A DNA stretch of 64,000 nt from Phycisphaerae bacterium (GTDB lineage Bacteria; Planctomycetota; Phycisphaerae; UBA1845), in NCBI GenBank assembly GCA_024102815.1, contig JAGFJJ010000078.1, positions 1-64,000 of the forward strand. Direction: 5' to 3'. The notes beneath the pieces are model-generated. The model was not told the DNA's origin. It searched no databases and was given only the letters and a program-made list of their open reading frames with translations. The position numbers and the translations under genes were made by a program. Shown here piece by piece: positions 22,268-60,429 of the stretch; the stretch's first letter is position 1, and the number at the start of each line of letters is the position of its first letter.

Positions 22268-22299
22268 GTTCCCTCTCTACTTGTTCAACCCACACCAGC

Positions 22300-30945: not shown

Positions 30946-32028
30946 TCAGGGCGTCCAGCGCGTAGGCACGATCGCCGACGGACCGTCGTAAACAAACGCT
31001 ACGCTGTGCCTTGCTCGCGTGATTGCCACATGAAGCCGCTCCTTTCCGGACAGCTCATCCAAATCACCCGTCTTCAAGTACTCTTTAATCGCCCTGGTCG
31101 GCACGATTAGCACTCGGTCGCATTCCATTCCCTTGGCTATTCCGAAGTTCAGGCCTCCCCGTTCATAATCGGGGGCGTTTTTCCTCCTCCCATGCTTCAA
31201 CACCTGAGGGCGGAAGTGTTCGAGATAGTCCGCCACTTTCTTCGCCTGCACCAAGAACACTCCATCGTGCCCGGTCTGCACGTCGCAACGAGGGATCATT
31301 CCCTCCATGCCCGGCCAGAGTAGATTGGCGAAATCGCATATTGCGCGGTTACACCGACGGGTTTCGTTCATTGTTTCGATTTTGCAAAGCCCGTCGTCCT
31401 CCCACTTTTCCATTAATTCCGTGATGCCGCTTTTGCGGAAGTGGTTGTTCTTCCGCGCAAGATTGGTGCTCAGAACGCTCTGGCGCGGATCCCCCACAAG
31501 AGTGATGCGGATATCGGATCGGAGTAGCAGTTCTACGAAATCCCAATCCCAAGCCGCCAAATCCTGACATTCATCGATGAATAGATCAGTGTACACTTGG
31601 CGCAATCGACGGATTACACTCCCCTGCGAGGCCGCATCGCACCGAACAGCAAATTTTGCGATCTTGTCCGTATAGATCAAATCGCCGCCACATAAGTAGT
31701 GGCGGGCGATGTCCGATTCGCCATGCCAATATGGAGATTGGCCCTGTACAAAGCAGATCGACTCAATCCGTTTATCGCGATAGACGACGTGCTGATACGG
31801 TCTTGCGCCCTCTCGCAACAAGAATCCGAACCACGTCATCACACCGACATGCCTTGGAATACCCCCATGCCGCTCGCCAAATCGGTCGATGATCCTCTCA
31901 GTGTTGTTGATCGTATACGTGACAAACGCAATCCGCCGATTAGTATTGGCGATCGCATCCAGCACAAGACGTGTGGTCTTTCCCGAACCTGCGCATGCAA
32001 TAATGACCCTGTTCTTACTCGATGGCAC
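30946..32028 (-). CDS. gajB: GajB 1: UvrD-like helicase of Gabija system 1
   Basis: The 360-residue protein is a compact superfamily 1 helicase: Walker A IACAGSGKTTRLVLDAI at the N-terminus, motif Ia/Ib (FVTYTINNTERI), motif II FIDECQDLAAWDW, motif III LVGDPRQSVL, motif IV ETRRCN, and motif VI VAITRARHSVAFVYD. It starts with GTG and overlaps the OLD-nuclease gene by 14 bases. A GajA-GajB pair is the Gabija anti-phage system: GajA cuts DNA and GajB is needed for activation. It is shorter than the 586-residue GajB at 58440, lacking most accessory subdomain sequence. Confidence 0.8.
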   Translation of the reverse strand: MPSSKNRVIIACAGSGKTTRLVLDAIANTNRRIAFVTYTINNTERIIDRFGERHGGIPRHVGVMTWFGFLLREGARPYQHVVYRDKRIESICFVQGQSPYWHGESDIARHYLCGGDLIYTDKIAKFAVRCDAASQGSVIRRLRQVYTDLFIDECQDLAAWDWDFVELLLRSDIRITLVGDPRQSVLSTNLARKNNHFRKSGITELMEKWEDDGLCKIETMNETRRCNRAICDFANLLWPGMEGMIPRCDVQTGHDGVFLVQAKKVADYLEHFRPQVLKHGRRKNAPDYERGGLNFGIAKGMECDRVLIVPTRAIKEYLKTGDLDELSGKERLHVAITRARHSVAFVYDGPSAIVPTRWTP

Positions 32029-33634
32029 GCTTGATGTACTCCGGCACTGTCCAGTTTTCCGTTGACTTGAACATTCGGAGAGCCCAATCCGTCTTGTGGT
32101 CCGGATTGCCCATGTACTTGAGCAAGGCCGCGTCGTCCTCGTACGTTTTCTCGAAAATCGCGTTCAGCCTTTCGCGGTTGTTCGCCTTCAGAAGTTGCGG
32201 TTCGAGCGTCGGGCAATGCTCGTCATCGTCGTAGAGAATCCTGATGGTCGAATGTGCTCCTTTCAGATAATTTGCGTACTTTTTTCGCAGCGCTTCTATC
32301 TTCCCATCGTTGTCTGTGACGACGCAAACATTCAGATTTAATAGTACCGCAATTTCCAAGAAGCGCTTGAACGCGAGCGAGCGAACGGAAATCACATCGA
32401 CACCATCCTCAAGCGGCAGCTTTCCGTGCTTGTCCTTGTACCCACGCTGCACGATCAACTCATCCGACGGGCCTTCGACAAGGATGCTTCGCTTGGCAAG
32501 GATGAGCCGCAACGTGTCATATCCAGGAAGTTTCATAAAGTACTCGCTCGTTGAAGGATCCAGTCCTCCGAGGGCAGCGGTCTGGCCAGTTTGTGAAATC
32601 AGTCTGAGATTGTCGATTCCCAATTTATTCAACACATAAGCACTGTGCGTAGCCACAATAACCTGATGCTTGTCGTCGCATTGGGCAGCTATCTCCGCCA
32701 TCAGCTTGCTCATGTTGGAATGGGAAAGGTGGTTTTCAGGCTCTTCAATGAGCAGAACGCGCGACTTCGCGGCACCTGCGATGGCAACCCGCATCTGGAT
32801 GCGGCACTGCTCGCCCTTCCCTGCACAGTCGAATGGAAGGTCATCCAGGTGTGGCGTAATCGCACTTTCCCAAGACGATCGGGACGACTGGTCCATTTGA
32901 ACCGTCAGTTTCTTGCCTGTATCGCTCTTGTGCCTCTGTTCAAGCTTCTTGTTCAAAGACTTCAGACCATCCCCTCTGGAGAACTCATGCCGTAGCTTTC
33001 GATATGCAAGCGAAAGGGCCTGGCGATCCTCGGGTTCGAGATCATCTTTCACGACCTGGGCTAGATACATGTTCGGACCGCGATAGGCGCGCCCAATGCT
33101 GGTATCGATCAGTTTGGCCCTGAGCGGGGCTGCTCTGGGCTTGATCGTCTCGCCCTTGAACGATTGCCACACAACGGTGTAGTACTCGACAGGGATGAGG
33201 TCGGGATTATTCGGATTTGTGACGTACTCCTTCAACTCTTCTGTATATTCGTTATTAGGTTTAATGTGCAACTGCAAACCTGGGCACGCAACGTGTTCAT
33301 GACCATGAGTGCCGGTGAGTTCTCCAAGTTCGGGATCTTGGCAATCGTCGTTGAAGTAAGCTTCGATCAGAATTGTCGGAGCGCTAGTGAGCTTGCCGCT
33401 TCGAAGAGTTGCGAAGTATTCCGCCACCCGCTCAAGGTTGAAGAGGTACGGATCGACACCATAGAAGATGCTGCGTCCGTCATACTGGCACGTGAGCACG
33501 AGGTTAATCGCCTCCAGCACCGAGGTCTTTCCCGTCTCGTTGTCGCCAACTATGACGTTCAGCTTCTCGTTTAGTGAGAGGTCGAAATCGGTGAGGCGTT
33601 TGAATCCATCGATGTAAATCCGGGTAAGATGCAT
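32015..33634 (-). CDS. gajA: GajA 1: OLD-family nuclease (ABC ATPase + TOPRIM) of Gabija system 1
   Basis: The 539-residue protein begins with an ABC-type ATPase: FKRLTDFDLSLNEKLNVIVG, Walker A GDNETGKTSVLEAINL (about residues 30-45), Walker B RVLLIEEPENHLSHSN (about 291-306) and the switch His in QVIVATHSAYVLNKLG. The C-terminal TOPRIM domain has ILVEGPSDELIVQ (the Glu) and CVVTDNDGKIEAL (the Asp-x-Asp), the metal-binding residues for nicking DNA. With the helicase gene directly behind it, this is a Gabija pair. Confidence 0.85.
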   Translation of the reverse strand: MHLTRIYIDGFKRLTDFDLSLNEKLNVIVGDNETGKTSVLEAINLVLTCQYDGRSIFYGVDPYLFNLERVAEYFATLRSGKLTSAPTILIEAYFNDDCQDPELGELTGTHGHEHVACPGLQLHIKPNNEYTEELKEYVTNPNNPDLIPVEYYTVVWQSFKGETIKPRAAPLRAKLIDTSIGRAYRGPNMYLAQVVKDDLEPEDRQALSLAYRKLRHEFSRGDGLKSLNKKLEQRHKSDTGKKLTVQMDQSSRSSWESAITPHLDDLPFDCAGKGEQCRIQMRVAIAGAAKSRVLLIEEPENHLSHSNMSKLMAEIAAQCDDKHQVIVATHSAYVLNKLGIDNLRLISQTGQTAALGGLDPSTSEYFMKLPGYDTLRLILAKRSILVEGPSDELIVQRGYKDKHGKLPLEDGVDVISVRSLAFKRFLEIAVLLNLNVCVVTDNDGKIEALRKKYANYLKGAHSTIRILYDDDEHCPTLEPQLLKANNRERLNAIFEKTYEDDAALLKYMGNPDHKTDWALRMFKSTENWTVPEYIKRAIE

Positions 33635-35649: not shown

Positions 35650-36498
35650 CCGATCATGTTTAGCACGCTCCCCGATTCCCTGCCGAGCAGAATCGTCAAC
35701 GCGCCGCTCTTGCTGGTGATCGGGATGGATGGCGGTCGCGTACAAACCCTTGAAAAACAAGGAGAAAACGGGAGCCGCTGGCGGGAGGACAAGGTGAGCG
35801 CGATTACGTCGTATCTGCCCGGCGACGGAACCACGGAGCATCCGCCGACGCCGCTGGCGACGACCTACGTGGCCACGATGGAGAAGACGGAGGTCTTCGG
35901 GAAGCTGGTTCACGTGGAAGCGGAACGGCGTGGCCTGCGACAGGCGGTCACGGTGTTGGTGATGGGCGACGGCGGAAACTGGATCGATCCGCTAAGTGAG
36001 CGGGAATGCCTGCACGACCGCCGGATCGTGGACTATTACCACGCGGCCGAACACCTGCACGAAGCGGCGCGGGCGGCGCTGGGCAAGGACATCGCTGAGA
36101 CTCAGGCGTTGGCCGGGCAACTGAAGGACGCCTTGTGGAACGGTGAGTTGGCTACGGTGATCGCCACGTTGCGGACGCACGCGGAACGACTGGGAGCGCC
36201 CGGGCCGGGCGATGGACCGGATCATCCGCGTCGGGTGCTGGCGAACAACGTGAACTACTTCGAAACCCATCGCCGCCACATGGACTACCCGACGTTCCGG
36301 CGCAAGGGCTGGCCGATCGGATCGGGCGTCACGGAATCGGCGGTCAAGCAGTTCAACAAACGCGTAAAAGGGACCGAGCAGTTCTGGAGCCTGTCGGGCG
36401 TCGAGTCGATCCTGGCCCTCCGCGCCGTCTGGCTGTCCCAAGACGACCGGTGGACAAGGTACTGGAACGCCCGGCCAGCCTATGCCAAGGCCGCCTAA
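35638..36498 (+). pseudogene. ISKra4-family transposase, C-terminal part
   Basis: From about residue 20 (LLLVIGMDGGRVQ) to the end, the sequence resembles ISKra4 transposases: the DGG motif, CLHDRRIVDYYHAAEHLHEAA, ANNVNYFETHRRHMDYPTFR and GWPIGSGVTESAVKQFNKRVKGTEQFW. The N-terminal 150 to 200 residues, including the DNA-binding domain, are missing, so it is the remnant of an insertion sequence. It lies directly against the truncated membrane-protein gene on one side and an IS630-type fragment on the other. Confidence 0.8.
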
Positions 36499-36635
36499 AC
36501 TGTCACGGACCCTTCATCCACCGCCAAGAGGACGTTCGCGTGACGGATCTTGTACGCCGCCGCCCTGCCCACCCGAACCAACTGCTTCAACCCATCCCGC
36601 TCCTCGGCCTCCAGCCGAACGATCCACCTTTTCAT
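36495..36635 (-). pseudogene. N-terminal fragment of an IS630-type transposase
   Basis: An excellent AAGGAGG precedes the ATG at 36635. The 46 residues begin MKRWIVRLEAEERDGLKQLV and continue through GRAAAYKIRHANVLLAVDEG, which is the first helical part of the helix-turn-helix in IS630-family transposases (VRLTxEERxxLxxLVxxG, then AxxIRHAxxLLxAD). It then stops where it meets the ISKra4 remnant, whose stop overlaps its own. The rest of the transposase is absent. Confidence 0.65.
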
Positions 36636-37000
36636 GCCGATCCTCCTTGAGACAGGGCATCCATGCCCTTACAAGGATCGGCTATCCAACATCTTTACCC
36701 GCACATTCGAGTGAATCGGACCACTAGGTTCTGTCCGGCAAGCATCACACGTTTCGCAAACGCCGCCGTTCCCCTCCGCATTGACACGCCCTGTCTTGCT
36801 TTGCCCGCATTCGCTCCGAGCCGGTCGGCTACCCGCCTGCCCGCCGGACAGGCGGGCAAGCGGCCGGTCGAAACGGCATGCGTCGCGCCAGGCGGCGTGA
36901 AATCCCCGCGCGATGAATCCAACGAACTTGCATCTGTTCGCAGGGCCGCCTGTCACTCCTCCTGCTGATCGCTTCGACCTGTAGCCGTCCGTCTCTCCGC
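36636..37000. other. Long leader with paired inverted repeats upstream of the methylase-helicase gene
   Basis: No gene is supported. CCCGCCTG (36832-36839) pairs with CAGGCGGG (36849-36856). CAGGCGGC (36889-36896) pairs with GCCGCCTG (36945-36952) and encloses CGAAC/GTTCG (36923-36927/36936-36940). These branched repeats precede the ribosome-site hairpin at 37001, as at 60306 and 61711. Confidence 0.4.
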
Positions 37001-37077
37001 CCGTCCCCGCGAGGGGTGATCGGGTTTCCCCAGCGCCCGGCGAAGGAAACCCGATCACCCTTTTTTCGCGAGGACGG
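37001..37077 (+). promoter_or_regulatory. Terminator-like hairpin in the leader, with the ribosome-binding site in the outer stem (leader class, copy 2)
   Basis: A perfect 16-bp stem, GGGTGATCGGGTTTCC (37014-37029) with its complement at 37045-37060, is followed by six Ts and so looks like an intrinsic terminator 20 bases before a start codon. Around it, CCGTCCCCGCGA (37001-37012) pairs at 11 of 12 positions with 37066-37077, which includes the Shine-Dalgarno GAGGA at 37070-37074. The gene should therefore stay off unless the structure is opened. Confidence 0.6.
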
Positions 37078-37080
37078 ACC

Positions 37081-40000
37081 ATGAGTGCAAAGCAAGTCAT
37101 ACAAGCCAAGCCGATGCGCAGAGAACAGCTCACCCTGTTCGCGCTGTTCGATGCGGCAGCGACAGAGAACCCTCGGACTCAGGCATTACCGGCAGCGGGG
37201 CTGGCGAACCATCGCCGTCTGCCGACGCCGCCGTCATCGCGTCCCGACCTGGGTGAGGACCCGACGACGACGGCTTTATACGGCAGACGGCAAGACGGCG
37301 GAGATTTATGGGCAGAGGGATCACCCGTTCAGACGCTTGCCCGAAGGATCGCGGCGGTGCTACACACCGAGCCGGCCACCCATATCGACAACCCACGCCT
37401 CGACGCGCTAACCCGCGAAATCTTCGGAACCGCCGTCGGCCACGCCCGTGACGCCTACGACGCCGCCGAAGGGGGCATGAATCTGCACATTGGCGAGTTT
37501 GCCATCGACTTCCGCGACGGGCGAGAAGCGATCGAGCGGCTACTTGAAGTCACGCAACGAATGCCTCGACAGTCCCGCCGAGACGAACGACAGGTTGAGT
37601 TGCAGCAGTTCAGCACGCCGCCGGCAGAAGCGTTCGTCGTCGTAGCAGCGGCGGCGATTCAACCGGGAATGTCCGTGCTTGAGCCGAGTGCCGGTACTGG
37701 CAATCTCGCGGTACTGGCACGATTGGCCGGGGCGGAAGTCGAGACCAACGAGATCGACCCCCGCCGGCGAGAACTTCTTACCATGCAGGGGTTCCCGGTG
37801 ACGGCGGTCGATGCGGAACGCCTCCACAATCTGCTTGATCCCGACAAAACCTTCGACGCCATCGTGATGAACCCGCCGTTCTCGGCGACCGGCGGTCGGG
37901 TCACGGGGCACAACACCAAGTTCGGCGCCCGACACGTCGAGCAGGCCTTACTCCGACTGAAACCCGGCGGTCGACTCGTCGCCGTCGTCGGCCAGGGAAT
38001 GGCCCTCGATCGCGTCGGCTTTCGCGAATGGTGGCAGATGATCGAGGAGCGTTTCCACGTCCGGGCCAACATCGGCATGGACGGCAACGGTTACGGGAAG
38101 TTCGGCACGTCGTTCGGCAATCAGATCGTCGTCATCGACAACGACGGACCCACGGCGAACGAAGAGGACGTGATCACCGGCTCGGAGCTTTCGCCGCAGG
38201 CCGCGTATGAACTGATTCGCGGCCTTGCCGACGAAGATATCCCGGCCCACATCGAACACGCCAGCCGGCGAACGGATCGCAACGGAAAGCCACGTAGCGA
38301 AACGCAACGCACCGCCGACCGAAACAGCATCGGCGAACTTGTCACCAACACGATGAGGCCCGCCGCCCAGATCGAAACGGGTACGGTGTTTTCACGCTAC
38401 GAAGTGCGGAAGGCCACCGTTCGCGGATCGGAGCAGCACCCCGCGAACGTCGTCGAATCGACCACGATGGCCAGCGTCGAGCCGCCGGACATCATCTACA
38501 GGCACCACTTGCCCCCGGAGTTGATCGTCGAAGGCAGAGTGTCCGACCTGCAAATCGAGGATACGATCTACGCGGGACAGGCCACCGAGACGATGCTTCT
38601 CGACGGCAACCGCCGCGGGCACTGGAACGGCGACGGTACCGGGATCGGCAAGGGCCGCGAAATCTACGCCTTCATCTACGATCAATTCCAGCAGGGCCGG
38701 CGAAAGCACGTCCACGTATCCGCGTCCCACCAACTCGTTGTGGACGCCGAACGGGACCGCGACGCCGTCGGCTTGCCCTTGCCCATCATCCATCAGGCGA
38801 AACGCAAGCCCACGGACGTTGTGACCGCGTCGCAAGGCGTGTTCTTCACGACCTACACCATGTTGGCGGGAGACTTCAAACAGAATCGCCCCCGATTCAA
38901 GCAGCTTGCGGATTGGCTCGGTTCGGACTTCGACGGCGTGATCGCCTTCGACGAATCGCACTTGATGAAGAACGCCGCATCGACGCCCTACGGTGGAAAG
39001 GCCAGCACCGACGCCGGCACCCAGCGGGGAAACATGGGGATCGAACTTCAGCGGATGTTCCCCAACGCCCGCGTCCGCTACTTCAGTGCCACCGGGGCCA
39101 CCGAGGTCCGGCATATGGCCGCGTACGAACGGCTCGGACTCTGGGGACCGGGAGCACCGTTCCCCGACTTCCCGTCGTTCGTGCTGGCGATGGAGCGGGG
39201 CGGCGTTGCGGCAATGGAGATGCTCTGCCGTGATCTCAAAGCCGTCGGATCGTACCTTGCCCGGACGATCAGCTACGGCCCCAGCCGAAACGACGACGGA
39301 ACCATCGTTCCCGATTCCGCCGTCGAGTACGAACCGCTTCAACACAACATGACCCCCGACGAACGCGGGCAGTACGACCAGATCGCCGAGCTTTGGTCGG
39401 AATTGCTCGTTGCCTTTGAGGCGGCGGAGGAGACCGCTGGCCAGCAGCGGAACCCGAACCGCTACGCCCAGTTCTACGCAACGCAGCAGCGTTTCTTCCT
39501 GCAATTGATGATGGCCTACGAGCTTCCCGACGTGATCCCGGCCATCGAACGCGACCTGTCCGAGGGCCGGTCCGTCGTGGTCAGCCTGTTCAACACCAAC
39601 GAGGCCCAGACCGACCGCAAGGTGAGTCGGGCGTTGGCTGACGGACTGGACCTGTCGGAACTCGACGCCACGCCCCGTGAGATGATCGTGCAACTCGTTG
39701 AGAAGCAATTCCCGATTCACCAGTACCAAGAGGTGACCGACCCCAAGACCGGCAAGGTCAAATCCGTCCGGGTGGAAGATGAAAACGGCAACCCGGAGAT
39801 CAACCGCGAGAACGTAGCCAAGCAGGCGGAACTACTCGACAGGGTTGCGGACCTCGACTTCCCGCAGAACCCCATCGACACGCTTGTCGATCACTTCGGC
39901 CCGGAGAACGTCGCCGAGATCACCGGACGCTCGCATCGCTTCGAACGCGGCAAGTACGTTCGTCGCAAGATCAGTGGCGTCGGAACCAAGCGATTGAACG

Positions 40001-41484
40001 AACACGAGACGCGGCAGTTCCAGGACGGAACGAAACGCTTGGCCATCGTATCCGGTGCCGGAGCTACGGGAATCAGTTTGCACGCCGACGTGGATGCGAA
40101 GAACCACGAGCGGCGGGTGTTCTACGCGTTTCAGCTTTCGTGGTCGGCGGATCAGCAGATGCAGGTGTTCGGCAGGGTGCATCGCTCGCATCAGGTGTCG
40201 GCCCCGATCATCCGGCTGGTGTTACTCGATCTTGCCGGCCAGAAGCGGCAGGTAAACGCCGTATCGAAGCGACTGGCAGCGTTGGGAGCACTGACCAAAG
40301 GCGAGCGACAATCCCTTGGCGGAGTGTTGTTCCGCCCGGAAGATGTTACCGACCAGTACGGTGCCGCGGCACTGGCACGCCTTTACGGCGAGATCACCCA
40401 CAACCGGCACAAGGACGCGGGACTCGGCGTGCGTGAGCTTGAGCGGATGGGCGTGCTCGACAAGGACAAGACGGCGGTACGCGAGAGCCTGATACGCAAG
40501 GTCAATCACTTTCTGAATCGCATCATGGTGCTTCCGGTTGAAAAGCAGAATGCGGTTTTCGAGCTTTTCTATGAGCGGTACGTCGAGGCCGTCGATGCCG
40601 CCAAACGTCGCGGAGCGTTCGACTTTGGGGTGTCGGAGATTAGGGCGAGGAACCTGCGAAGCGCCTGTCCCCCGCAGACCCTTCACACAGACGAGGCGTC
40701 GGGGGCACGGACGGTCCTGCACGAACTGCAAGGCGAGATCGACGTTGAGCGGCACGAGTTCGATACCGCCCGGTGCCGGTTCGCCGTCGAGGGCTTCTAC
40801 CGCAACATCCGAGGCGGGACGGTCTACGCCGTGTCCGCCCATCACGACGATTCGCTACGACAGGCGGTGCTAATGGGCGTCAAGCGAACCACTCGGATTG
40901 TCGTTGAACGGCACGAGCTTGCCGCGAAGTACACCAAGGTCGGGAACGACGCCGCACGCGAATGGTGGGACGCGGCCTATGCCAGCACCCCCGCCACGGC
41001 CACGGAGAAGTTCTACGTCCTGAGCGGTGCCATCATCCCGATCTACGACAAGATCATGGGCGGGCAGGGCATCGACAACACCAAAGTCGCCCGGGCGATC
41101 CTTGAAAATGGCGAAGCCCTTGTCGGCTTCAACTTGAGTCCCAAGGATGTTGGGCCGGTCAAGCAGAGGCTCGGTATCGGCAATCCGCTGGCCGATTCGA
41201 CCGCCGAGGAGATTCTGGAATTGGTCGACGCCGGTGGAGTGATCGAACTGGACAACGGATGGCGGATCACGCTTTCGGTCGTATCCAGCGAGAGCGTCGT
41301 CGAGCTTGTCCTGAACGGCGTCATCGGAAACAAGGACGAGATCCGCGGTTACGGATTCATCGACGAGACCATCCACTACAAACGCCGCTGGTTCGCCCGC
41401 ATCGACGAGGCGGACGCGGTGCTGGCCCGATTGCTAGCCCGCCGGAAACCCGTACGGGACATCACGTTCGACCAGGCCGCGTAA
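37081..41484 (+). CDS. Giant methyltransferase-helicase fusion, DarB/strawberry-notch-like antirestriction protein
   Basis: The 1467-residue protein has three parts. Residues about 150-430 are an N6-adenine methylase: LEPSAGTGNLAVLARLAGAE (cofactor motif) and DAIVMNPPFSATGG (catalytic motif). Residues about 480-740 are the first helicase domain: WNGDGTGIGKGREIYAF (Walker A), VIAFDESHLMKNA (motif II), FSATGATEV (motif III). Residues about 970-1100 are the strawberry-notch-type C-terminal helicase: IVSGAGATGISLHAD and QQMQVFGRVHRSHQ (motif VI). Such methylase-helicase fusions occur on plasmids, and the best known relative in plan is phage P1 DarB, which protects incoming DNA from type I restriction. 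The leader hairpin suggests control at DNA entry. Confidence 0.75.
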   Translation: MSAKQVIQAKPMRREQLTLFALFDAAATENPRTQALPAAGLANHRRLPTPPSSRPDLGEDPTTTALYGRRQDGGDLWAEGSPVQTLARRIAAVLHTEPATHIDNPRLDALTREIFGTAVGHARDAYDAAEGGMNLHIGEFAIDFRDGREAIERLLEVTQRMPRQSRRDERQVELQQFSTPPAEAFVVVAAAAIQPGMSVLEPSAGTGNLAVLARLAGAEVETNEIDPRRRELLTMQGFPVTAVDAERLHNLLDPDKTFDAIVMNPPFSATGGRVTGHNTKFGARHVEQALLRLKPGGRLVAVVGQGMALDRVGFREWWQMIEERFHVRANIGMDGNGYGKFGTSFGNQIVVIDNDGPTANEEDVITGSELSPQAAYELIRGLADEDIPAHIEHASRRTDRNGKPRSETQRTADRNSIGELVTNTMRPAAQIETGTVFSRYEVRKATVRGSEQHPANVVESTTMASVEPPDIIYRHHLPPELIVEGRVSDLQIEDTIYAGQATETMLLDGNRRGHWNGDGTGIGKGREIYAFIYDQFQQGRRKHVHVSASHQLVVDAERDRDAVGLPLPIIHQAKRKPTDVVTASQGVFFTTYTMLAGDFKQNRPRFKQLADWLGSDFDGVIAFDESHLMKNAASTPYGGKASTDAGTQRGNMGIELQRMFPNARVRYFSATGATEVRHMAAYERLGLWGPGAPFPDFPSFVLAMERGGVAAMEMLCRDLKAVGSYLARTISYGPSRNDDGTIVPDSAVEYEPLQHNMTPDERGQYDQIAELWSELLVAFEAAEETAGQQRNPNRYAQFYATQQRFFLQLMMAYELPDVIPAIERDLSEGRSVVVSLFNTNEAQTDRKVSRALADGLDLSELDATPREMIVQLVEKQFPIHQYQEVTDPKTGKVKSVRVEDENGNPEINRENVAKQAELLDRVADLDFPQNPIDTLVDHFGPENVAEITGRSHRFERGKYVRRKISGVGTKRLNEHETRQFQDGTKRLAIVSGAGATGISLHADVDAKNHERRVFYAFQLSWSADQQMQVFGRVHRSHQVSAPIIRLVLLDLAGQKRQVNAVSKRLAALGALTKGERQSLGGVLFRPEDVTDQYGAAALARLYGEITHNRHKDAGLGVRELERMGVLDKDKTAVRESLIRKVNHFLNRIMVLPVEKQNAVFELFYERYVEAVDAAKRRGAFDFGVSEIRARNLRSACPPQTLHTDEASGARTVLHELQGEIDVERHEFDTARCRFAVEGFYRNIRGGTVYAVSAHHDDSLRQAVLMGVKRTTRIVVERHELAAKYTKVGNDAAREWWDAAYASTPATATEKFYVLSGAIIPIYDKIMGGQGIDNTKVARAILENGEALVGFNLSPKDVGPVKQRLGIGNPLADSTAEEILELVDAGGVIELDNGWRITLSVVSSESVVELVLNGVIGNKDEIRGYGFIDETIHYKRRWFARIDEADAVLARLLARRKPVRDITFDQAA

Positions 41485-41694
41485 CGCAATTGGGATCCTC
41501 AAAAGCCGCCTGACGGTACAGCGCAACTTATCGATTCGCCCGGCGACGTGACTATCGTAGGCAAAAAAGGTTACCGCAATCACGCCCCATTTCGAATCCG
41601 TGGCCTCCCGGATCGAGTAGTGGCATCTGGTGAAACGTTTCACGCCAAGTGAGCCAATCGGCGTATTCGAACAAGGGACGGTTTTCGCCTCCGC
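41485..41694. other. Spacer, no gene
   Basis: About 210 bases between the methylase-helicase gene and the hairpin at 41695. No start with a ribosome-binding site and no recognisable protein. Confidence 0.4.
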
Positions 41695-41730
41695 CTGAGG
41701 GGGAACCAGAGTACGCAGGTTCCCCCTCAG
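41695..41730. repeat. Perfect 13-bp hairpin upstream of an IS3 fragment
   Basis: CTGAGGGGGAACC (41695-41707) is an exact inverted repeat of 41718-41730 around a 10-base loop. There is no T-tract. It lies about 90 bases before the transposase fragment and may be part of the insertion sequence end or a terminator for the 4.4-kb gene upstream. Confidence 0.5.
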
Positions 41731-41817
41731 ACTCCCCCTCCTTCCTTCTTTCTCCTCCGGGGGGAAGAGGGCGGTCGGGTCGGGTAGCATGGCGTCGTCG
41801 CCGCCGGGAGGACCGTC

Positions 41818-42132
41818 ATGAGCACGAACCGGAAACGTCGGAAGTGGACGCCGGAGCAGAAGCTCCGGATCGTGATCGAGAGTTTGCAATCGGAACGCAA
41901 GACGGCGGAGATCTGCCGCCGCGAAGGCCTCTCGCCCAACCAGATGTACGACTGGCGGAAGAAGCTGCTGGGCAGCGCCCAAGCGGTCTTCGCCGCCAAA
42001 GACCGCAACGACTCATCCCGTGGACCGAGGATCGACACCCTTATTCGACGAAGCGAGTTGTCTCACTTTGAGCGAAACAAATCACTGGCAAGCGTCGCTT
42101 GGTACTACTTTAATGAGGCGGCGCCTATCTGA
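41818..42132 (+). pseudogene. IS3-type transposase OrfA, broken
   Basis: The first 55 residues are an OrfA helix-turn-helix of the IS3/IS911 group: RRKWTPEQKLRIVIESLQSE, then ICRREGLSPNQMYDWRKKLL. From about residue 60 the sequence leaves the family. No OrfB (integrase core with DDE) follows. GGAGG lies just before the start. This is one more IS remnant in the region. Confidence 0.75.
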
Positions 42133-42498
42133 GGTGTGGAAACTGCACGATAACGCCGAGCGCCCGGGTGAAGTGTTTGGGGGCGCCCAACCGGTCAACG
42201 GGCCAAACCGATGGACCCCTTCGATGGATCACCTGAGCGACGTCGCCACGTTCAGTAATCTGGCGCCGTCTTGATCGGGCTCTGGGGCAGCATTTTTCGC
42301 GATTGCGAGGCCCAACCGGGGTGAAGCGTGACGCCGGAGTGTTTCGGTGTACGATGGAGCAACTCCAGGGCTGTGGTTACGAACGATCAATGGTGGCCGG
42401 AGCGTGAACTGCACGGCGGTCGTCACGGAGGTGTCCGAACATGTCCCGAAGGTGATGTGCCACATCATGGCGCGCGGGCATGGGCAACAGGTGATCGT
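42133..42498. other. Spacer before the Shango-like operon
   Basis: The open frame of the next gene extends back to 42328, but residues before the Met at 42499 have no protein character. Nothing else is supported here; the promoter of the three-gene operon should lie in this segment. Confidence 0.45.
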
Positions 42499-44781
42499 AT
42501 GGCCGAAACCATCCTCATCGTCCTAATCGCCATCGTAGCGGTTGTACTCCTGGGTGTCCGTGACAAGCTTTCGGCTCTGCTTGGCGCCGGGGACCGAACC
42601 GCACAGCGTCGGACCGCTAGTCGAGCGGATCGCATCGACTCCGATTGGCGCGTTATGGCAGCGCCGTCACACAAGTCTAAACCGAAATGGCTCGGTTATG
42701 GTGACGTGCTTCAAGTAAAGGGCTTTGAGATTGCGCACCCCTTGACGTACCTGTCGAGCCCCGGCGGTTCGGCAATTGACCCTTCGGAGATCGATCGGTC
42801 CCTGCCCATCGCGAGAGATTCAGAGGCAGACGATCTGCCGTATTGGCCTTGGTACGCCCGGATGAACTCGGCCCAGCGGCACATCTACCTTGACTGGTTG
42901 TCATCCGACCGCGCCAAGCTGCCCAACACCGATGGTTACCTGTTCGTTTATTACTACGGCTTGGAGCGGCGCGCGCTGGTTGATGACGCGGATCACAAGA
43001 CGGTGTTCGAGGAGGTGCAGCGGCTTCGCCAAGTCTACGAAGAATACGGCCCCAAGCGTGGTCGAAACAGTTTCATGAACTACAGCTCGGCGTTCCTGTG
43101 GTTTCTTGCGGCGTACAAACCTGACGAGATCAAGCAGAAGAGGGTCCAAAGGCTCGCGGAGTTGACGCGTGTATGGAACGAAGAGAAGCTCGCCGCGGCG
43201 CTGGCTTGGTGCGTTTCTCGAAAGCGACCCTTGCCTTCGTGGCTTGCGTTTGCCGTCGCTGAGCAATCACCGCAATCGCAGCGAAGCGTAGTCACCAAGC
43301 GAGTTGGCGACGAGTTCCGTGTGTTGTTCGCCAAACGGTACCAGGAGCAGTTCACCGAGGGACTGCCGCTACGGACCTCGAAGCGGGAGCGGCATATCTC
43401 CTACCGCCCCGCGAGCGCCGTGATCGATCACGCTTCGCTGGCGGTCCCGAATGCCCTTGGTATCCCCAGTCAATTCAAGCTGCTCTCTTCGATCTGGAAC
43501 GGTTGCATCGATGATTTGCGAAAGCTGAGTGCCGTAACCCGTGAGAAGACTGATGCTCCGCTCACGGCCAAAGCGTGGGAAGCGATGCCGCCCGAACTCC
43601 GCCGTTCGCTCGAACATCCCCAGAACAACGCCGTCTGCGATCTGATCGCAGAAAGTGCGGATGAGGACGGACACGTGTTCGTCCGGGCTGGTGAACTTGC
43701 TCGTGCGATGCAAGTTGAGAAAGGCGATCGCCTTACGATTGGCCAAAGTCGAGCGATTGCCGCTACGGTCGAGCACATCGGGTTCGCGTTGGAGCCCGAC
43801 CCGCGTCTGACCGGGAAGAGCTACAAAGCCGATTCGCTGATCGCCGCATTTCCACAGGCCTACGAGGGCGATCCCGACTACAAGCGTTACGGCGGGGCCG
43901 CTTGCATGATGCGACTCGGCCTGGCCGTGGCCGAAGCCGACGGGCATGTCGATGATGAGGAACTGCACCGCGTGCGGGATCAGATCGAGGACGGATTCGA
44001 ACTCAACGACCATGAGCGCCGGCGATTGGAGGCCTTGCAGACGCTGCTCATCAAGACCGGTTCGGACATCGCCGGCCTGGGCAAACGGCTGCAGGAGGTC
44101 GTAGCCGAGAGCGGCCGGAGGTCGGTCGGGAAGCTGCTGATCGGTGTTGCTGCCTGCGATGGTGTCATCACCAAGGGCGAATTGCGGGCGCTTCGCAAGT
44201 GTTTCCGGTCTCTCGGGCTGACATCCGAGGGGCTCGACGCGATGCTCCAGGAACTCGCCTCTGACCTAGCCGAAGCTCCCGTCAGCGTGACACCGGGACG
44301 GCCGCGCGAGGCCGGGGAACCCATCCCACTCACCCGAGCAGCGGATGCGGAGATCCAACTGGATCGTGAGGCTATCGCAAGAATCATGCATGAGACCCGG
44401 GATGTGAGTGCGCTGCTGGCGAAAGCGATGGATATTCCCACTGAAGTGCAATCCGACCATCTTGTTGCGGTGATGGATCCTCGGGTCGATAACGACGATG
44501 CGCCACGCATACCGACAACAGCCATCGATTCTCCCAATCCCTCAGCCACGTCCGCACAACTACCGCCCGCGCGGTTCGCGGCTTTCTATACGGAGCTTGT
44601 CACCAAGAAGCGCTGGACCCGGGAGGATGCCGCACAACTCGCGCGGCGTCATGGCCACATGCTGAGCGGGGCGATCGAATCGATCAACGAGTGGGCCTTC
44701 GATGAATTCGGCGCCCAACTCGTGTACGATGGTGAGGATGACGTGGAACTGGAGCTTGATCTGCTGGAAGGAAGTGGCTAA
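42499..44781 (+). CDS. sngA: SngA-like TerB-domain membrane protein of a Shango-type defence system
   Basis: From the ATG at 42499, the protein has 760 residues. It starts with a membrane helix, ETILIVLIAIVAVVLLGV, then a TerB N-terminal domain (LPYWPWYARMNSAQRHIYLDW and LFVYYYGLERRAL), a central TerB domain (MRLGLAVAEADGHVDDEELH, with the acidic DGHVDDEE motif, then NDHERRRLEAL), and a TerB C-terminal region (RWTREDAAQLARRHGHML to INEWAFDEFGAQLVYDGEDD). With the ATPase and helicase genes 3 bases apart behind it, the order equals the Shango system, whose SngA is a TerB-domain protein. The membrane helix would place the complex at the inner membrane. Confidence 0.75.
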   Translation: MAETILIVLIAIVAVVLLGVRDKLSALLGAGDRTAQRRTASRADRIDSDWRVMAAPSHKSKPKWLGYGDVLQVKGFEIAHPLTYLSSPGGSAIDPSEIDRSLPIARDSEADDLPYWPWYARMNSAQRHIYLDWLSSDRAKLPNTDGYLFVYYYGLERRALVDDADHKTVFEEVQRLRQVYEEYGPKRGRNSFMNYSSAFLWFLAAYKPDEIKQKRVQRLAELTRVWNEEKLAAALAWCVSRKRPLPSWLAFAVAEQSPQSQRSVVTKRVGDEFRVLFAKRYQEQFTEGLPLRTSKRERHISYRPASAVIDHASLAVPNALGIPSQFKLLSSIWNGCIDDLRKLSAVTREKTDAPLTAKAWEAMPPELRRSLEHPQNNAVCDLIAESADEDGHVFVRAGELARAMQVEKGDRLTIGQSRAIAATVEHIGFALEPDPRLTGKSYKADSLIAAFPQAYEGDPDYKRYGGAACMMRLGLAVAEADGHVDDEELHRVRDQIEDGFELNDHERRRLEALQTLLIKTGSDIAGLGKRLQEVVAESGRRSVGKLLIGVAACDGVITKGELRALRKCFRSLGLTSEGLDAMLQELASDLAEAPVSVTPGRPREAGEPIPLTRAADAEIQLDREAIARIMHETRDVSALLAKAMDIPTEVQSDHLVAVMDPRVDNDDAPRIPTTAIDSPNPSATSAQLPPARFAAFYTELVTKKRWTREDAAQLARRHGHMLSGAIESINEWAFDEFGAQLVYDGEDDVELELDLLEGSG

Positions 44782-44784
44782 GGC

Positions 44785-46137
44785 ATGCGTGCACGAATCA
44801 CGGGGCGCGAGCGGTCGGCGATTTTGAGTTCCCTTGCGGCAGGTGTCGTTCCCAGCATCGGGCTTCATCATATCCAGGTCGGTCGCAAGGACGAGGTGAA
44901 CGCGCTGCTCAGCGATCTCGCAAAGGTGGAGAATGACGCGGCGTTTATCCGATTCGTGGTCGGCCGGTTCGGCTCAGGAAAGACGTTCTTCCTGAACCTC
45001 GTCCACACAGTCGCATTGGAACGGAAACTCGTCGTCGCGAGCGCCGACATCACAACGCAGCGTCGCCTTCATGGCACCGGTGGACAGGCGCGAACTCTCT
45101 ATAGCGAGTTGATGCGGAACATCGCTTCGCGGAGCCGGCCCGAAGGCGGCGCGCTTCCCAACCTGATCGAACGGTGGGTATCCGATCTGGCTCACGAAGT
45201 ATCCTCCTCCGGCGGAACGGCCGAGGACGTTGGACGCCGTCTTCACGATGCGTGCAAACCGCTGCAAGAGCTGGTGAGCGGACACGATTTCGCGAAGGTC
45301 ATCGAGCAATACTACCGTGGATTCCTCGACCACAACGAAGCGCTGCAACAGGCCGCGATCCGCTGGCTCCGCGGAGAGTACACGACCAAGACCGAAGCCC
45401 GGCAGGATCTCGGTGTCCGAACGATCATTGACGACAGCTCCTTCTACGAATACCTGAAACTCATGGCGGGGTTCGTTCGCATCGCCGGATACGCCGGGCT
45501 GGTGGTTTGTATCGATGAACTCGTCGTGCTGTCCCATCGATTGAACAACAAGACGGCCCGGAACAACAACTACGAGGCGATTCTACGCATCCTAAACGAC
45601 TGCCTGCAGGGATCGGTGCAGGGACTCGGTTTCATTTTCGCGGCAACCGACGACTGTTTGATGGACAAGCGGCGCGGGCTATTCAGCTACGAGGCACTCG
45701 CCACCCGGCTGGCACCCAACCGGTTCGCATCGGATGAGGTCGTTGATTTCTCCGGCCCCGTGCTGTCGCTTGCCAGCCTGACGCCCGAGGATTGCTACGT
45801 ACTGTTGCACAACATCCGCCGGGTGCATGCGAAGGCGGACGACACCAACCATGCGCTGCCCGACGAGGCAATCGAGGCATTCCTCAAAGACTGCAACCAA
45901 CGGATGGGAGCGGCTTACTTCCTGACCCCGCGCGAGACGGTGAAGGATTTCGTTGGCCTGCTCAACGTGCTTGAGCAGAATGAACAAGCGGATTGGCGTA
46001 CGCTGCTCGGGGCTATCAAGACAACGGCGTCGGACGCGACCGATCCTTACGCGAGCGTCCCGGAGCAGGAGGATGGTCCGGACGACGAACCTGTTGCTAC
46101 GCGAGGTGATGACGACCTTGCCAGCTTCAAGCTCTAA
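44785..46137 (+). CDS. sngB: SngB-like ATPase (DUF2791/BrxD family) of a Shango-type system
   Basis: The 450-residue protein has Walker A in FVVGRFGSGKTFFLNLVH (about residues 59-76) and Walker B in AGLVVCIDELVVLS (about 236-249), then the sensor region GLGFIFAATDDCLMD. These are features of the DUF2791 ATPases, which include BrxD of BREX and SngB of Shango. It starts 3 bases after the TerB gene, so the two are surely co-transcribed. No BREX methylase or PglZ gene is present, which argues for Shango. Confidence 0.78.
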   Translation: MRARITGRERSAILSSLAAGVVPSIGLHHIQVGRKDEVNALLSDLAKVENDAAFIRFVVGRFGSGKTFFLNLVHTVALERKLVVASADITTQRRLHGTGGQARTLYSELMRNIASRSRPEGGALPNLIERWVSDLAHEVSSSGGTAEDVGRRLHDACKPLQELVSGHDFAKVIEQYYRGFLDHNEALQQAAIRWLRGEYTTKTEARQDLGVRTIIDDSSFYEYLKLMAGFVRIAGYAGLVVCIDELVVLSHRLNNKTARNNNYEAILRILNDCLQGSVQGLGFIFAATDDCLMDKRRGLFSYEALATRLAPNRFASDEVVDFSGPVLSLASLTPEDCYVLLHNIRRVHAKADDTNHALPDEAIEAFLKDCNQRMGAAYFLTPRETVKDFVGLLNVLEQNEQADWRTLLGAIKTTASDATDPYASVPEQEDGPDDEPVATRGDDDLASFKL

Positions 46138-46140
46138 GCG

Positions 46141-49071
46141 ATGACGGATACCAACGATTTTTCTCAACCGGCCTCACCTTCAAGCGACGTCTCCAGCGCG
46201 TTCGAACTGCTTGCTCGTGGCGTGCAGCGCCAGCTCTGGCGCATGGGCTGGACGGAGTTACGACCGATTCAGGTCCATGCGATTCGCGCGATAACGCAGT
46301 CCGATGCTGACGTGGTGATTGCAGCAGAAACCGCAAGTGGAAAAACCGAAGCGGCGTTCCTGCCGATCATTTCGAGGATATCCGACGAGCCGCCAAGCTC
46401 AGTCCGCGCACTGTATGTCGGCCCGCTTCGAGCGTTGATCAACGATCAGTTTCAGCGCATCGAGGATCTCTGTCAGTACGTGGACGTTCCGACCCATCGT
46501 TGGCACGGAGATGTCGGCGCCGCCGCCAAGTCCTCCCTACTCAAGAACCCGGCCGGCGTCCTTCTCATTACACCCGAGTCCATCGAATCGCTCTTCGTCA
46601 ATCGGTCGTCCCATTTGCCGCGCCTGTTCGGCGGATTGCGGTACGTGGTGATCGACGAGCTGCACTCCTTCCTCGACAGTGAACGGGGCATCCACTTGCA
46701 GAGCCTGTTGTGCCGGTTGCGGCGTGTCGTGGGTGCATCCGATGGATCGTTTCGCACGGTGGGATTGTCCGCCACGCTCGGCGAAATGATCGCCGCTCAG
46801 CGATACGTGAACCGGGACAAACCGAAGACCGTTGCGGTCATCCGCGACGACGCTGGCGGGAAAGAGCTCCGATATCGTCTGCATGCCTATGTCTCGGAGC
46901 CGTCCACTGAGCTGGCTGTCGCTGAGGATGCACGCGAAGACTCGGGCGAACTCGACGTGATGCGGCAAATCGCGGAAGACCTCGTGGAACATTGTCGCGG
47001 CTCCAGCAACCTGGTATTCGCCAATGCCAAAGGCGACATCGAAGTTTACGCCGACCTCTGCAACGAAATCACACGGCGCGATGCCCTGCCGGAATCCTTC
47101 CTCGTGCATCATGGTTCGCTTTCCCGTGAAATCCGGGAAGATACCGAGGCCGGAATGAAGGACGGCCATCGGCAGACCGCAATCTGTTCGAGTACGCTTG
47201 AGATGGGTATCGACATCGGCAGCGTTCGGACGGTCGGTCAGATTGGGGCAACCTGGTCGGTCTCGTCGCTGAAACAACGCCTCGGAAGAAGTGGGCGCAA
47301 AGATGACGATCCCCGGATCATGCGCGTATACATCGCTTGTCGCGACCCCGGATCCGATGGAAGTCTTCTTGATCGGCTGCACCTCGAATTGATACAGGCG
47401 ATTGCCGCCACGGAGCTGCTGCTGAGCGGATGGGTCGAACCGCCGACACCCGCCACATGCGACCTGAGCACGCTGACCCAACAAATCATCAGTGTCATCG
47501 CCGAGACCGGGGGGACGACCGCTTCCGAACTCCACGCCCGGCTCATCCGTCTCGGCGCCTTCCGGGACATCGAGTTGAGTTTGTTCAAGGCATTGTTGCA
47601 GTGTCTTGGCCGGGCTGACATCGCGGAGCAGATCGCAACCGGTGAGTTGATCCTCGGCCTGGAAGGGGAAAGAATCCGCGCCGGACGCGACTTCTATGCA
47701 GCGTTTCAAACGCCGGCGGAGTTCACCGTGACCACCGGACAGCGCTTGATCGGAACGGTGCCGATTCTCGGGTCACCGAGCGTGGATGACCACATTCTGC
47801 TGGGTGGCCGGCGCTGGAAGGTGGTGAGCGTCGACTATGACCGATCGGAGATTCTCGTTGAGCCGGCGCGCGGCAAGAAGCGCCCGTTGTTTATGGGCGG
47901 GGTCGGCGCGGTGCATGGCCGGATCCGTGAGACTATGCGAGATGTCTTGCACTCTGGCGATCGATACGTTTACCTCAACTCGACGGCATCCGACTTGCTG
48001 GCCCGCGCGCGCCGCACGGCGGAAGAAGCCGGCATGCTCACCGATCCCGTGGTCGCGATCGACGACCGAAAGTCACTTTGGTTCAATTGGGCTGGAACGA
48101 ACACGCAGAGCACGATGGCGGCGTTGCTGGGTGCGATCGGGGTTGACGTGATCGACCGCGGTGTGGGTTTGGAGGTCGCCCTACCCAAATCCGAGGTCGG
48201 AACCGCCCTTGCGAAAGTACTCTCGGCCAAGCCCGATCCCGAATCTGTTGCTGAGCACGTCCTCCCTAAGCTCAGGAGGAAGTATGACGAGTTCCTGTCC
48301 GACAAGCTGCTCGATACCGCAATCATACGGGACGTCTTGAATCTCGACGAAGCCGTACGACTCTGCCGCAATCTGGCCAATCCGATCGAGCACCGCAGCG
48401 AAAAAAGCGCCACGAACATCAGCACCCGGCCGACCGGCGTTCGGGCTCCGCGCATCATATCCGGACGCCCCATGAAGGCCCTTCGCTCCTACCTGGTCTT
48501 CGACTTCGAGACTACCGGGTTGGACTGTCATCGCGATCGGATCATCCAGGTCGGGCTCTGCCGGGTAGCGGAAGGTAAAGTCGTGGATCGCACAGGTTGG
48601 CTCGTGCGCCAGGATGTCCCGATCCGCCCCGAGGCGCAGCGAAAGCATGGCATCACGGTTGAAGCTCTGCGGAAACACGGGACGACGCCCGAGGCGAGCC
48701 TGACCCGCCTTCTCGCCGCAATGCGGGAGGCGCCGGCGTGCATGGGACATAACATCCACATGTTCGACCTTCGATTCCTGCGAGCGGAATGCCGGCGCGC
48801 CGGCGTACGGGAGCCCAACTCATCCGCGTTCATCGACACCGCTGCGCTCTTCAAAGGATGGCGTTTGGGCGCTCCGTATGACCACCGGCACGAATCACCG
48901 CGTGACCATGCGATTCGAGTTCTGTCGACGAGAGTCAAGGACCTCAAGTACTCGATCGCCGCCTGCCTAGAGGCCCTTGGGGTCGAGGCTGACAAGTCGG
49001 GGATGCACGATGCAAGCGAGGATGCCTATCTGACTTACTTGATCTTCGAGGCACTGCAAGGTCGGCTGTAG
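46141..49071 (+). CDS. sngC: SngC-like Lhr-type helicase fused to a DnaQ-type exonuclease
   Basis: Residues 1 to about 770 are a DEAD/DEAH helicase of the Lhr type: Q-motif region MGWTELRPIQVHAI, Walker A AAETASGKTEAAF, motif II VVIDELHSFLD, motif III GLSATLGE and motif VI LKQRLGRSGRKDDD, with the winged-helix and Lhr core after it. Residues about 780-976 are a DEDDh 3'-5' exonuclease: YLVFDFETTGLDCHRD (Asp, Glu), MGHNIHMFDLRFL (Asp) and HDASEDAYLTYLIF (His, Asp), all four motifs intact. Position as third gene matches SngC. The exonuclease fusion would add DNA degradation to unwinding. Confidence 0.78.
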   Translation: MTDTNDFSQPASPSSDVSSAFELLARGVQRQLWRMGWTELRPIQVHAIRAITQSDADVVIAAETASGKTEAAFLPIISRISDEPPSSVRALYVGPLRALINDQFQRIEDLCQYVDVPTHRWHGDVGAAAKSSLLKNPAGVLLITPESIESLFVNRSSHLPRLFGGLRYVVIDELHSFLDSERGIHLQSLLCRLRRVVGASDGSFRTVGLSATLGEMIAAQRYVNRDKPKTVAVIRDDAGGKELRYRLHAYVSEPSTELAVAEDAREDSGELDVMRQIAEDLVEHCRGSSNLVFANAKGDIEVYADLCNEITRRDALPESFLVHHGSLSREIREDTEAGMKDGHRQTAICSSTLEMGIDIGSVRTVGQIGATWSVSSLKQRLGRSGRKDDDPRIMRVYIACRDPGSDGSLLDRLHLELIQAIAATELLLSGWVEPPTPATCDLSTLTQQIISVIAETGGTTASELHARLIRLGAFRDIELSLFKALLQCLGRADIAEQIATGELILGLEGERIRAGRDFYAAFQTPAEFTVTTGQRLIGTVPILGSPSVDDHILLGGRRWKVVSVDYDRSEILVEPARGKKRPLFMGGVGAVHGRIRETMRDVLHSGDRYVYLNSTASDLLARARRTAEEAGMLTDPVVAIDDRKSLWFNWAGTNTQSTMAALLGAIGVDVIDRGVGLEVALPKSEVGTALAKVLSAKPDPESVAEHVLPKLRRKYDEFLSDKLLDTAIIRDVLNLDEAVRLCRNLANPIEHRSEKSATNISTRPTGVRAPRIISGRPMKALRSYLVFDFETTGLDCHRDRIIQVGLCRVAEGKVVDRTGWLVRQDVPIRPEAQRKHGITVEALRKHGTTPEASLTRLLAAMREAPACMGHNIHMFDLRFLRAECRRAGVREPNSSAFIDTAALFKGWRLGAPYDHRHESPRDHAIRVLSTRVKDLKYSIAACLEALGVEADKSGMHDASEDAYLTYLIFEALQGRL

Positions 49072-50732: not shown

Positions 50733-51824
50733 ATGAGCGATGACAGGAGCGCGATCGTTGCGGATCACACCGCGCCGTGCAACGACGTGCGGCGGGGTCT
50801 TCCGCCGATGCTAATTGGACACGCGACGCCGGAGGTTCGTCGTCGGGTCGAGAAGTTCTACACGTCGGTGTCCGACCTCTTCGAAGCATGGGTGGCACGG
50901 CGACGGAGCCCGCACACGCAACGCGCCTATCGTCAGGACGTAACCTGCTTCATCAGCTTCATGGGGCTCGATTGGCCCGGAGAATCGTGGCGGATTTACA
51001 CCGTCTCGGTAAAAGACGTTCAGGCTTTTCGCGAGGACCTGATCGCCCGCGGCGCGGCACCGAAGACGCTCAACCGGCGAATCTCGTCGGTATCGAGCTT
51101 CTACAAGTTCCTGGCGGCAACGGCCGCCGAGCTTCGACTGCCGATCACCGTGCCCAACCCCGCCCACGCGCAGTTCATCAGCCGGGAATCCAACGATCCG
51201 CTCCACGACACGAAGGCGCTGTCGGCCACGCGTGCACGGCAACTGATGAGCATGCCTGCCGGCAACACGCTGGTCGAGGCCCGCGATCGGGCGATTCTGA
51301 AGTTTTACCTGTACACAGCCGCCAGAATCAGCGCCGGGTGCCGACTCAGGGTCAGCGATTTCCACCGCGACGGCGAGGAAGCCACGATCCGCCTGAGCGA
51401 AAAAGGCCATCGCCATCGGACGATCGGCCTGCACTTCACCGCCGCCGAAGCGATCGCGGAGTACATCGAGAGAGCCGGGCTCACCGGCGGGCCGCTGTTT
51501 CGACCCCGCGTCTCGTCCAACTGCGATCGGCTCGCCGATCGGCCATTTCATCCAATGGGCATGTATCACTTGATCATGGGGTATCTGCGCCGCCTCCCGG
51601 GGGCGATCAAGCGAGAGGCGGCGCCTCATGAAGCGACGGCACCGCGGTGCATCTACACGCCGCATTCGCTACGCGCCACGACGGCGACGCTGCTGCTCGG
51701 CGCCGGCGTCGATATGCGGAAAGTCCAGGATCTGCTCGGCCATCAACACGTCACCACGACGCAGATCTACGACAAGCGGCGAATCGCCGTGTCCGAGAGT
51801 GCCTCGCACGACGTCCCGATTTGA
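50733..51824 (+). CDS. Tyrosine recombinase (phage integrase family)
   Basis: AAGGAGG precedes the ATG. The 363-residue protein has an N-terminal SAM-like core-binding domain (SPHTQRAYRQDVTCFISFMG, then APKTLNRRISSVSSFYKFLA) and the catalytic domain: Arg in YTAARISAGCRL, Lys in LSEKGHRHR, the HSLRATTATLL box (His, Arg), GHQHVTTTQIYDKR (His and the nucleophile Tyr). All catalytic residues are present. It could integrate and excise the element or resolve dimers. The ARISAG sequence has an Ala-Gly change where most have GLRxxE. Confidence 0.9.
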   Translation: MSDDRSAIVADHTAPCNDVRRGLPPMLIGHATPEVRRRVEKFYTSVSDLFEAWVARRRSPHTQRAYRQDVTCFISFMGLDWPGESWRIYTVSVKDVQAFREDLIARGAAPKTLNRRISSVSSFYKFLAATAAELRLPITVPNPAHAQFISRESNDPLHDTKALSATRARQLMSMPAGNTLVEARDRAILKFYLYTAARISAGCRLRVSDFHRDGEEATIRLSEKGHRHRTIGLHFTAAEAIAEYIERAGLTGGPLFRPRVSSNCDRLADRPFHPMGMYHLIMGYLRRLPGAIKREAAPHEATAPRCIYTPHSLRATTATLLLGAGVDMRKVQDLLGHQHVTTTQIYDKRRIAVSESASHDVPI

Positions 51825-60408: not shown

Positions 60409-60429
60409 ACGCGCCGCCGGCTCGTCGCC

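Follow-up and report, generated by a model that had tools for sequence, protein, structure and literature searches.

The CUP repeats of IncN plasmids, a repeated regulatory sequence found before anti-restriction genes, form a protein-repressed double-stranded promoter. Repeated sequences also precede anti-restriction genes in the DNA analyzed here. This DNA is a stretch of 64,000 nucleotides (nt) from a Phycisphaerae bacterium (GenBank assembly GCA_024102815.1, contig JAGFJJ010000078.1, positions 1 to 64,000; hereafter the window), which belongs to a 137-kb contig (C78) and carries a gene for a methylase-helicase protein. The original prediction placed a terminator ahead of the start codon of this gene. 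We find by computation that the hairpin concerned forms the end nearest the gene of a structured leader of about 280 nt, which is conserved and repeated in planctomycete conjugative elements, that the structure covaries, recurs among genomes and is present in three copies in the window, and that it fits the strand opposite the messenger RNA (mRNA) better than the mRNA strand.

Likenesses were also found with two groups of elements in enterobacteria. The Frpo/ssi promoters of F and ColIb-P9 (PMC9849209, PMC11541004) are likewise non-coding and repeated on one element, and they stand before leading-region genes that, like those here, include methylase and anti-restriction genes; they are folded on the template strand, which the fold of the leader also fits better. 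In contrast to Frpo/ssi, the leader has no detected sequence similarity to them, shows no −35/−10 boxes and holds a ribosome-binding site inside its fold; furthermore, it occurs in planctomycete hosts, and its genes so far do not include SSB or psiB. The STAXI motif (RF01728; PMC2864571) is a structured element near anti-restriction genes for which a function of single-stranded DNA (ssDNA) is discussed, but it consists of tandem pseudoknots in Enterobacteriales and has no match here. At gathering scores, Rfam 15, STAXI included, gave no match for the leader and matched only a group II intron; microRNA-like and PhotoRC-I matches in relaxed Rfam scans were far below gathering scores and were ignored. 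Table 1 of PMC2864571 lists a Rhodopirellula-1 candidate motif, which has no Rfam accession there, for Proteobacteria and Planctomycetes. The leader may be the same motif. Literature searches on strawberry notch, Frpo/ssi, ArdC, planctomycete conjugative elements, CUP and STAXI returned no title or beginning of an abstract that describes the leader.

Structure of the leader

The gene and the hairpin before it are located as follows.

37081 to 41484, + strand: methylase/strawberry-notch-type helicase, 1,467 amino acids (open reading frame, domains and motif strings)
37002 to 37076, + strand: gene-proximal hairpin of leader copy 1, with outer stem 37002-37012/37066-37076 containing the ribosome-binding site AGGA, inner stem 37014-37029/37045-37060 and T-rich internal loop 37061-37066

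The perfect 16-bp stem with six Ts and an ATG 20 nt after it, which had been noted previously, is indeed present: the arms 37014-37029 and 37045-37060 enclose a 15-nt loop and are followed by T6, with 20 nt from the stem to the ATG. An inverted-repeat listing of the window (spacing of at most 60) held only two perfect repeats of at least 16 bp, this one and 60441-60492, and the fold of copy 1 had a z score of −6.6 against 200 shuffles; the stem is therefore not a product of chance. Both repeats are copies of one leader. RNA folding showed a longer hairpin, of which the 16-bp stem makes up the inner half; an outer stem continues it, encloses the T-run and takes up the ribosome-binding site in a paired arm. 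The hairpin was not listed by a terminator scan, the loop limit of which is 8. A comparable two-stem hairpin precedes the start codon in L002, the nearest relative (83% identical protein), and in L051 and L052, the inner stem being partly broken in L052. Among these four hairpins, 6 of 27 pairs show a two-sided change; at one position, for instance, the pair is C-G, G-C or T-A.

Recurrence of the leader and the genes behind it

Two covariance models, R1 (four leaders) and R2 (13 leaders, that of L052 included, without window sequences), find the leader across planctomycete genomes. Copy 1 scored 111 bits with R2, and the window holds two further copies, one before an ArdC-like gene and one before a small open reading frame (ORF).

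60367 to 60505, + strand: leader copy 2 (R2 59.4 bits), outer stem 60430-60440/60498-60508, inner stem 60441-60458/60475-60492
60511 to 61377, + strand: ArdC-like anti-restriction protein, 288 amino acids (ArdcN, Peptidase_M78)
61746 to 61880, + strand: leader copy 3 (R2 22.9 bits, weak), outer stem 61802-61812/61873-61883, inner stem 61818-61830/61851-61863
61885 to 62115, + strand: ORF of 76 amino acids, a recurrent small family without a Pfam match

With R2 at an E value of at most 0.01, matches were obtained in 24 of 114 genomes of the order (five judged false) and in 6 of 392 genomes of a phylum sample that included the genome itself (one judged false); at most 9 to 30 candidates were scored per genome, and these counts are therefore lower bounds. 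The false matches (G007, G054, G041, G106 and G030 in the order, G482 in the phylum) had no ORF behind them or were symmetric palindromes. From the model matches with an ORF directly behind, 39 leaders were picked by hand, relatives included, which fall into 26 clusters. The genes behind them encode an ArdC-like protein (23 leaders), a methylase-helicase (6), an ORF of 76 to 90 amino acids (5) or an ORF of 89 to 102 amino acids (2); the remaining three precede a DUF2958 gene, the start of which is 23 nt away, a 172-amino-acid ORF and one other ORF. The leaders directly precede anti-restriction genes and other probable establishment genes. The ORF start nearly always lies 4 to 9 nt past the end of the R2 model, and this fixed position before many different genes argues for a role of the leader in gene expression.

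Searches that started from the ArdC protein found a leader directly before the gene in 17 of 30 loci, and a leader was present in 10 of 12 further ArdC stretches, one of which holds a gene that already belonged to the first set. The ArdC loci without a leader are mostly those of more distant ArdC relatives. No such hairpin was seen before the genes of 13 methylase-helicase relatives that are more distant and whose upstream region could be read. In L012, the methylase-helicase gene sits between two leaders of the family. For the motif CCTGTCACKYCCGYTGC, only exact matches were trusted, as matches with one mismatch look no more numerous than in the reversed control.

Several minor observations concern the genes behind the leaders. 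Four of the six methylase-helicase frames are broken early (32 to 127 amino acids) while the leader is well kept (L060/L051 from 1250, L062, L063 and L078; genomes G080, G051 and G017). The 76- to 90-amino-acid ORF recurs behind leaders in the window (61885-62115) and in L068, L096, L105 and L112, and the two copies examined had no Pfam match. The next gene after it in the window (62167-62478) is a DUF2958 gene, and elsewhere, in another genome, a leader precedes a DUF2958 gene (L115, 1189-1647); this gene may be part of the same entry-gene set. Near-perfect intergenic palindromes of the GGGGGTTTTGTTCAC type, with arms of about 25 to 28 bp, were seen in L098, L099 and L102 near 1450-1680. They match the model weakly on both strands and were rejected as leaders; they are perhaps attenuators or mobile repeats.

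Covariation and the upstream domain

In an alignment of 13 leaders, two-sided changes were found in 26 of 27 hairpin pairs, with a covariation score of 0.608 compared with 0.206 for shuffled alignments and at most 0.253 when partners were slid; such figures are inflated by the fitting of the alignment to the model, but the slid controls are far lower. The region of about 200 nt 5' of the hairpin contains conserved blocks common to 23 leaders, such as GGTCGCGCCAGG and CCTGTCACGCCCGYTGC, and forms a second structured domain.

36799 to 37000, + strand: upstream structured domain of copy 1, with long-range helix 36813-36824/36989-37000 and inner helix 36875-36892/36949-36965

This domain was studied in 23 of the 39 leaders, which were chosen for visible shared upstream blocks and of which 18 are in A6-A8, and the results apply to these leaders. 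Both the long-range and the inner helix were predicted by RNAalifold. The long-range helix covaries, and in an alignment-free test on 21 of the 23 leaders its cognate arms paired at −17.63 kcal/mol compared with −13.93 kcal/mol for permuted arms (0 of 10,000 permutations); the anchors of L061 and of one or both rows of L111 are probably misplaced. Each of the three window copies, when folded as the strand opposite the mRNA, forms the hairpin plus one large closed domain. A 19-nt segment (36792-36810) is also 84% complementary to the start-codon region (37081-37099); this pairing was dropped, as relatives keep it only in part.

Strand preference of the fold

A selected mRNA fold would show G-U pairs in excess over A-C mismatches on its own strand. 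Isolated mismatches in the hairpin, counted once per cluster and context on the mRNA strand, comprised 26 A-C and 5 G-T. In most of them, a C on the 5' side faces an A on the 3' side, and constraint on the 3' arm together with GC-ward mutation could add to the A-C excess. For whole leaders under RNA parameters, the ratios of G-U to A-C in two alignments were 27:62 and 41:70 on the mRNA strand, whereas those of G-T to A-C on the opposite strand were 89:25 and 90:23. These analyses replaced plain hairpin counts (G-U to A-C of 16:14, then 41:52, partly altered by trimming), which were affected by ambiguous junctions and by a mismatch that is conserved near the apex.

Folding energies lean in the same direction. 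Consensus energy was lower on the opposite strand in all four comparisons, and under DNA parameters the isolated hairpin arms were more stable on the opposite strand in 31 of 39 leaders and on the mRNA strand in 7. For the upstream domain, raw energies were lower on the opposite strand in all 23 leaders, and under DNA parameters the z score of this strand was the lower one in 22 of 23, with a mean of −2.91 compared with −1.09 for the mRNA strand. The z scores of 81 control regions showed no strand difference (P = 0.89). In 11 further leaders, the sign of the z score agreed in every case with a smaller effect (−1.52 versus −0.61), and the hairpins agreed in 7. Ten Frpo copies from F-type plasmids, which served as a control and from which the fetched sequence L153 was excluded, showed the same lean (mean of −132.1 on the T-strand versus −122.7).

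Position relative to the transfer genes

Judging from its gene content, the element that carries the methylase-helicase gene is conjugative, and its integrase, relaxase with DUF3363, coupling protein and trb-type type IV secretion system genes are all on the + strand.

50733 to 51824, + strand: tyrosine integrase of the element
68680 to 82787 of contig C78 (right of the window), + strand: relaxase, coupling protein and trb-type type IV secretion system genes

The three window leaders lie on the strand of the transfer genes and to their left. The coupling protein (PF02534), found in 12 of 23 genomes, was used as the marker for transfer genes, as hits for the relaxase families PF11843 and PF03432 were limited to 4 of 23 and 5 of 19 genomes, respectively. 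On five of the six contigs with both a leader and a coupling protein gene, the two are on the same strand with a leader upstream; one of these five, in G038, has a third leader downstream of the coupling protein gene as well. The methylase, antirestriction, ssb and psiB genes of the F plasmid have the same arrangement relative to tra, and in F the transferred strand is the template of the leading genes (PMC9849209). By analogy with F, the strand opposite the mRNA would be the transferred strand of the planctomycete elements.

Interpretation of the leader

The reading that we favor, which we regard as possible rather than probable, is that the leader is an Frpo-like structure on transferred ssDNA that serves the early expression of anti-restriction genes. 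On this reading, the leader fold would act as ssDNA. The element would enter the recipient as ssDNA, and each leader would fold on the transferred strand into a duplex-like hairpin consisting of an inner stem, an unpaired internal loop and an outer stem, the paired ribosome-binding site being part of the downstream duplex. Such a hairpin may permit transcription from the single-stranded template ahead of second-strand synthesis, and ArdC, the methylase-helicase and the small proteins could thus act ahead of host restriction; in R388, ArdC is required by the recipient side of transfer (PMC7213743). Second-strand synthesis would convert the template to double-stranded DNA, the fold would be lost and expression would end. 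The leader would thereby work like the Frpo promoters of F, its identity as such a promoter being an analogy; as it has neither −35/−10 boxes nor sequence similarity to Frpo, it should not be filed as Frpo.

Several results weigh against this reading. No −35/−10-like site was found on either strand of 36000-42500 in a scan with the sigma-70 consensus only, from which planctomycete promoters may differ, and the leader had no BLASTN match among plasmids or phages, although the plasmid set has at least 5,000 Frpo-bearing records. The raw energies partly reflect composition, as 17 of 21 C-rich control regions likewise had the lower raw energy on the opposite strand, and the strand tests fit ssDNA and antisense RNA alike. 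The leaders are not independent samples, given 26 clusters among the 39. In G420, the leader and the coupling protein gene are on opposite strands, and no origin of transfer of the element was found that would fix which strand is transferred. Finally, the ribosome-binding site is paired in all 39 leaders, which is accounted for more simply by an operator in the mRNA.

Such a translational operator, the main rival, is in our view an unlikely explanation. The outer stem would hide the ribosome-binding site and keep read-through transcripts silent until some factor, or a transcription start inside the hairpin, frees it. The core of the ribosome-binding site indeed lies within the paired 3' arm, the start codon follows 4 to 9 nt behind in nearly all leaders, and the outer stem covaries; however, the mRNA strand has more A-C mismatches than G-U pairs, and folding favors the other strand. 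This strand bias would equally suit an antisense RNA whose fold covers and represses the leader, as in plasmid copy control, and stems that differ among the copies of one element would give such an RNA specificity. We consider it decidedly unlikely, as no conserved promoter was seen behind the start codon in the sigma-70 scan of 36000-42500 and as a similar skew exists in Frpo, which is an ssDNA element.

It is also quite unlikely that the leader is a folded site on transferred ssDNA that serves some other purpose, such as second-strand priming or the binding of ArdC or another entry protein. The strand evidence and the lack of promoter boxes agree with such a site, as does the binding of ssDNA by ArdC (PMC7213743), but the fixed spacing of 4 to 9 nt to the start codons of many different genes does not. 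An intrinsic terminator or attenuator before the methylase-helicase gene is very improbable. The perfect stem and six Ts of copy 1 suggest one, but at least five Ts are present in only 6 of the 39 leaders, with TTAA (L051) and TACC (L002) in place of TTTTTT in the two nearest relatives, and the outer stem, which pairs the ribosome-binding site in all 39, encloses the Ts as part of an internal loop. As the T-run is not conserved, the terminator of the original prediction was rejected.

The Frpo-like reading can be extended to a wider proposal that we consider rather doubtful, namely, that the leaders are a family of elements that start gene expression specifically from single strands, have no relation to Frpo and do not use sigma-factor boxes. 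The transferred strand would fold into an upstream duplex, a pre-opened bubble and a downstream duplex with the ribosome-binding site, and anti-restriction genes that are spread out over the element would be on only during entry. Single-strand promoters are best known from enterobacterial plasmids. They have been sought by sequence similarity or −35/−10 boxes (PMC11541004). A leader with opposite-strand covariation outside these plasmids could provide an alignment-based way to find such switches, and to identify the genes that are expressed from an element as it enters, among them small ORFs that have no assigned function.

The methylase-helicase protein

The 1,467-residue ORF at 37081-41484 was confirmed, with an ATG start; an in-frame stop lies upstream at 36982, with no alternative start between. 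Its annotation as an adenine methylase joined to a strawberry-notch-type helicase is borne out by the Pfam domains AAA_34 (E = 2.4e-94), Helicase_C_4 (6.4e-71) and, weakly, MTS methylase (6.6e-5). The strings NPPF at 264, GTGIGKGR (Walker-type) at 519 and DESH at 624 are what we take to be methylase and helicase motifs. The proposed link to DarB of phage P1 holds for the general plan, as both proteins combine an adenine-type methylase with an SF2 helicase and are encoded on mobile elements. Homology is limited to the methylase core, which alone aligned in BLASTP (30% over 118 amino acids, E = 2e-5), and the helicase of DarB scores as SNF2-rel_dom/Helicase_C, in contrast to the strawberry-notch module (AAA_34/Helicase_C_4) found here; identity with DarB was therefore rejected. 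The protein is of a known kind, as a methylase-helicase dyad is already in print for phages, plasmids and conjugative transposons (PMC5512222).

Relatives covering at least 80% of the protein were found in 396 of 72,556 plasmid records, all with less than 60% identity, and in none of the 169 matching phage records; no solved structure matched the protein by sequence. The named relatives are mostly from metagenome-assembled genomes of Phycisphaerae and other Planctomycetota, with one labeled Nitrospira and one Acidobacteriota.

Neighboring genes

The methylase-helicase gene was correctly placed on a defense-rich mobile element, and gene searches located its named neighbors.

14754 to 19432: Qat A-D
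19434 to 24696: type I S/M/R
32015 to 33634: GajA
42328 to 49071: Shango

Two Gabija systems had been proposed. GajA of one was found at 32015-33634, and the second Gabija-like pair, at 56716-60200, comprises an OLD-like TOPRIM ATPase and a UvrD protein according to Pfam alone. An efflux operon with a TetR regulator, an outer-membrane efflux protein and an HlyD-type fusion protein lies to the left of the defense genes (4890-8727). The group II intron matches are on the − strand, at 54753-54856 of the window and at 843-936 of L080, the latter about 340 nt before a leader.

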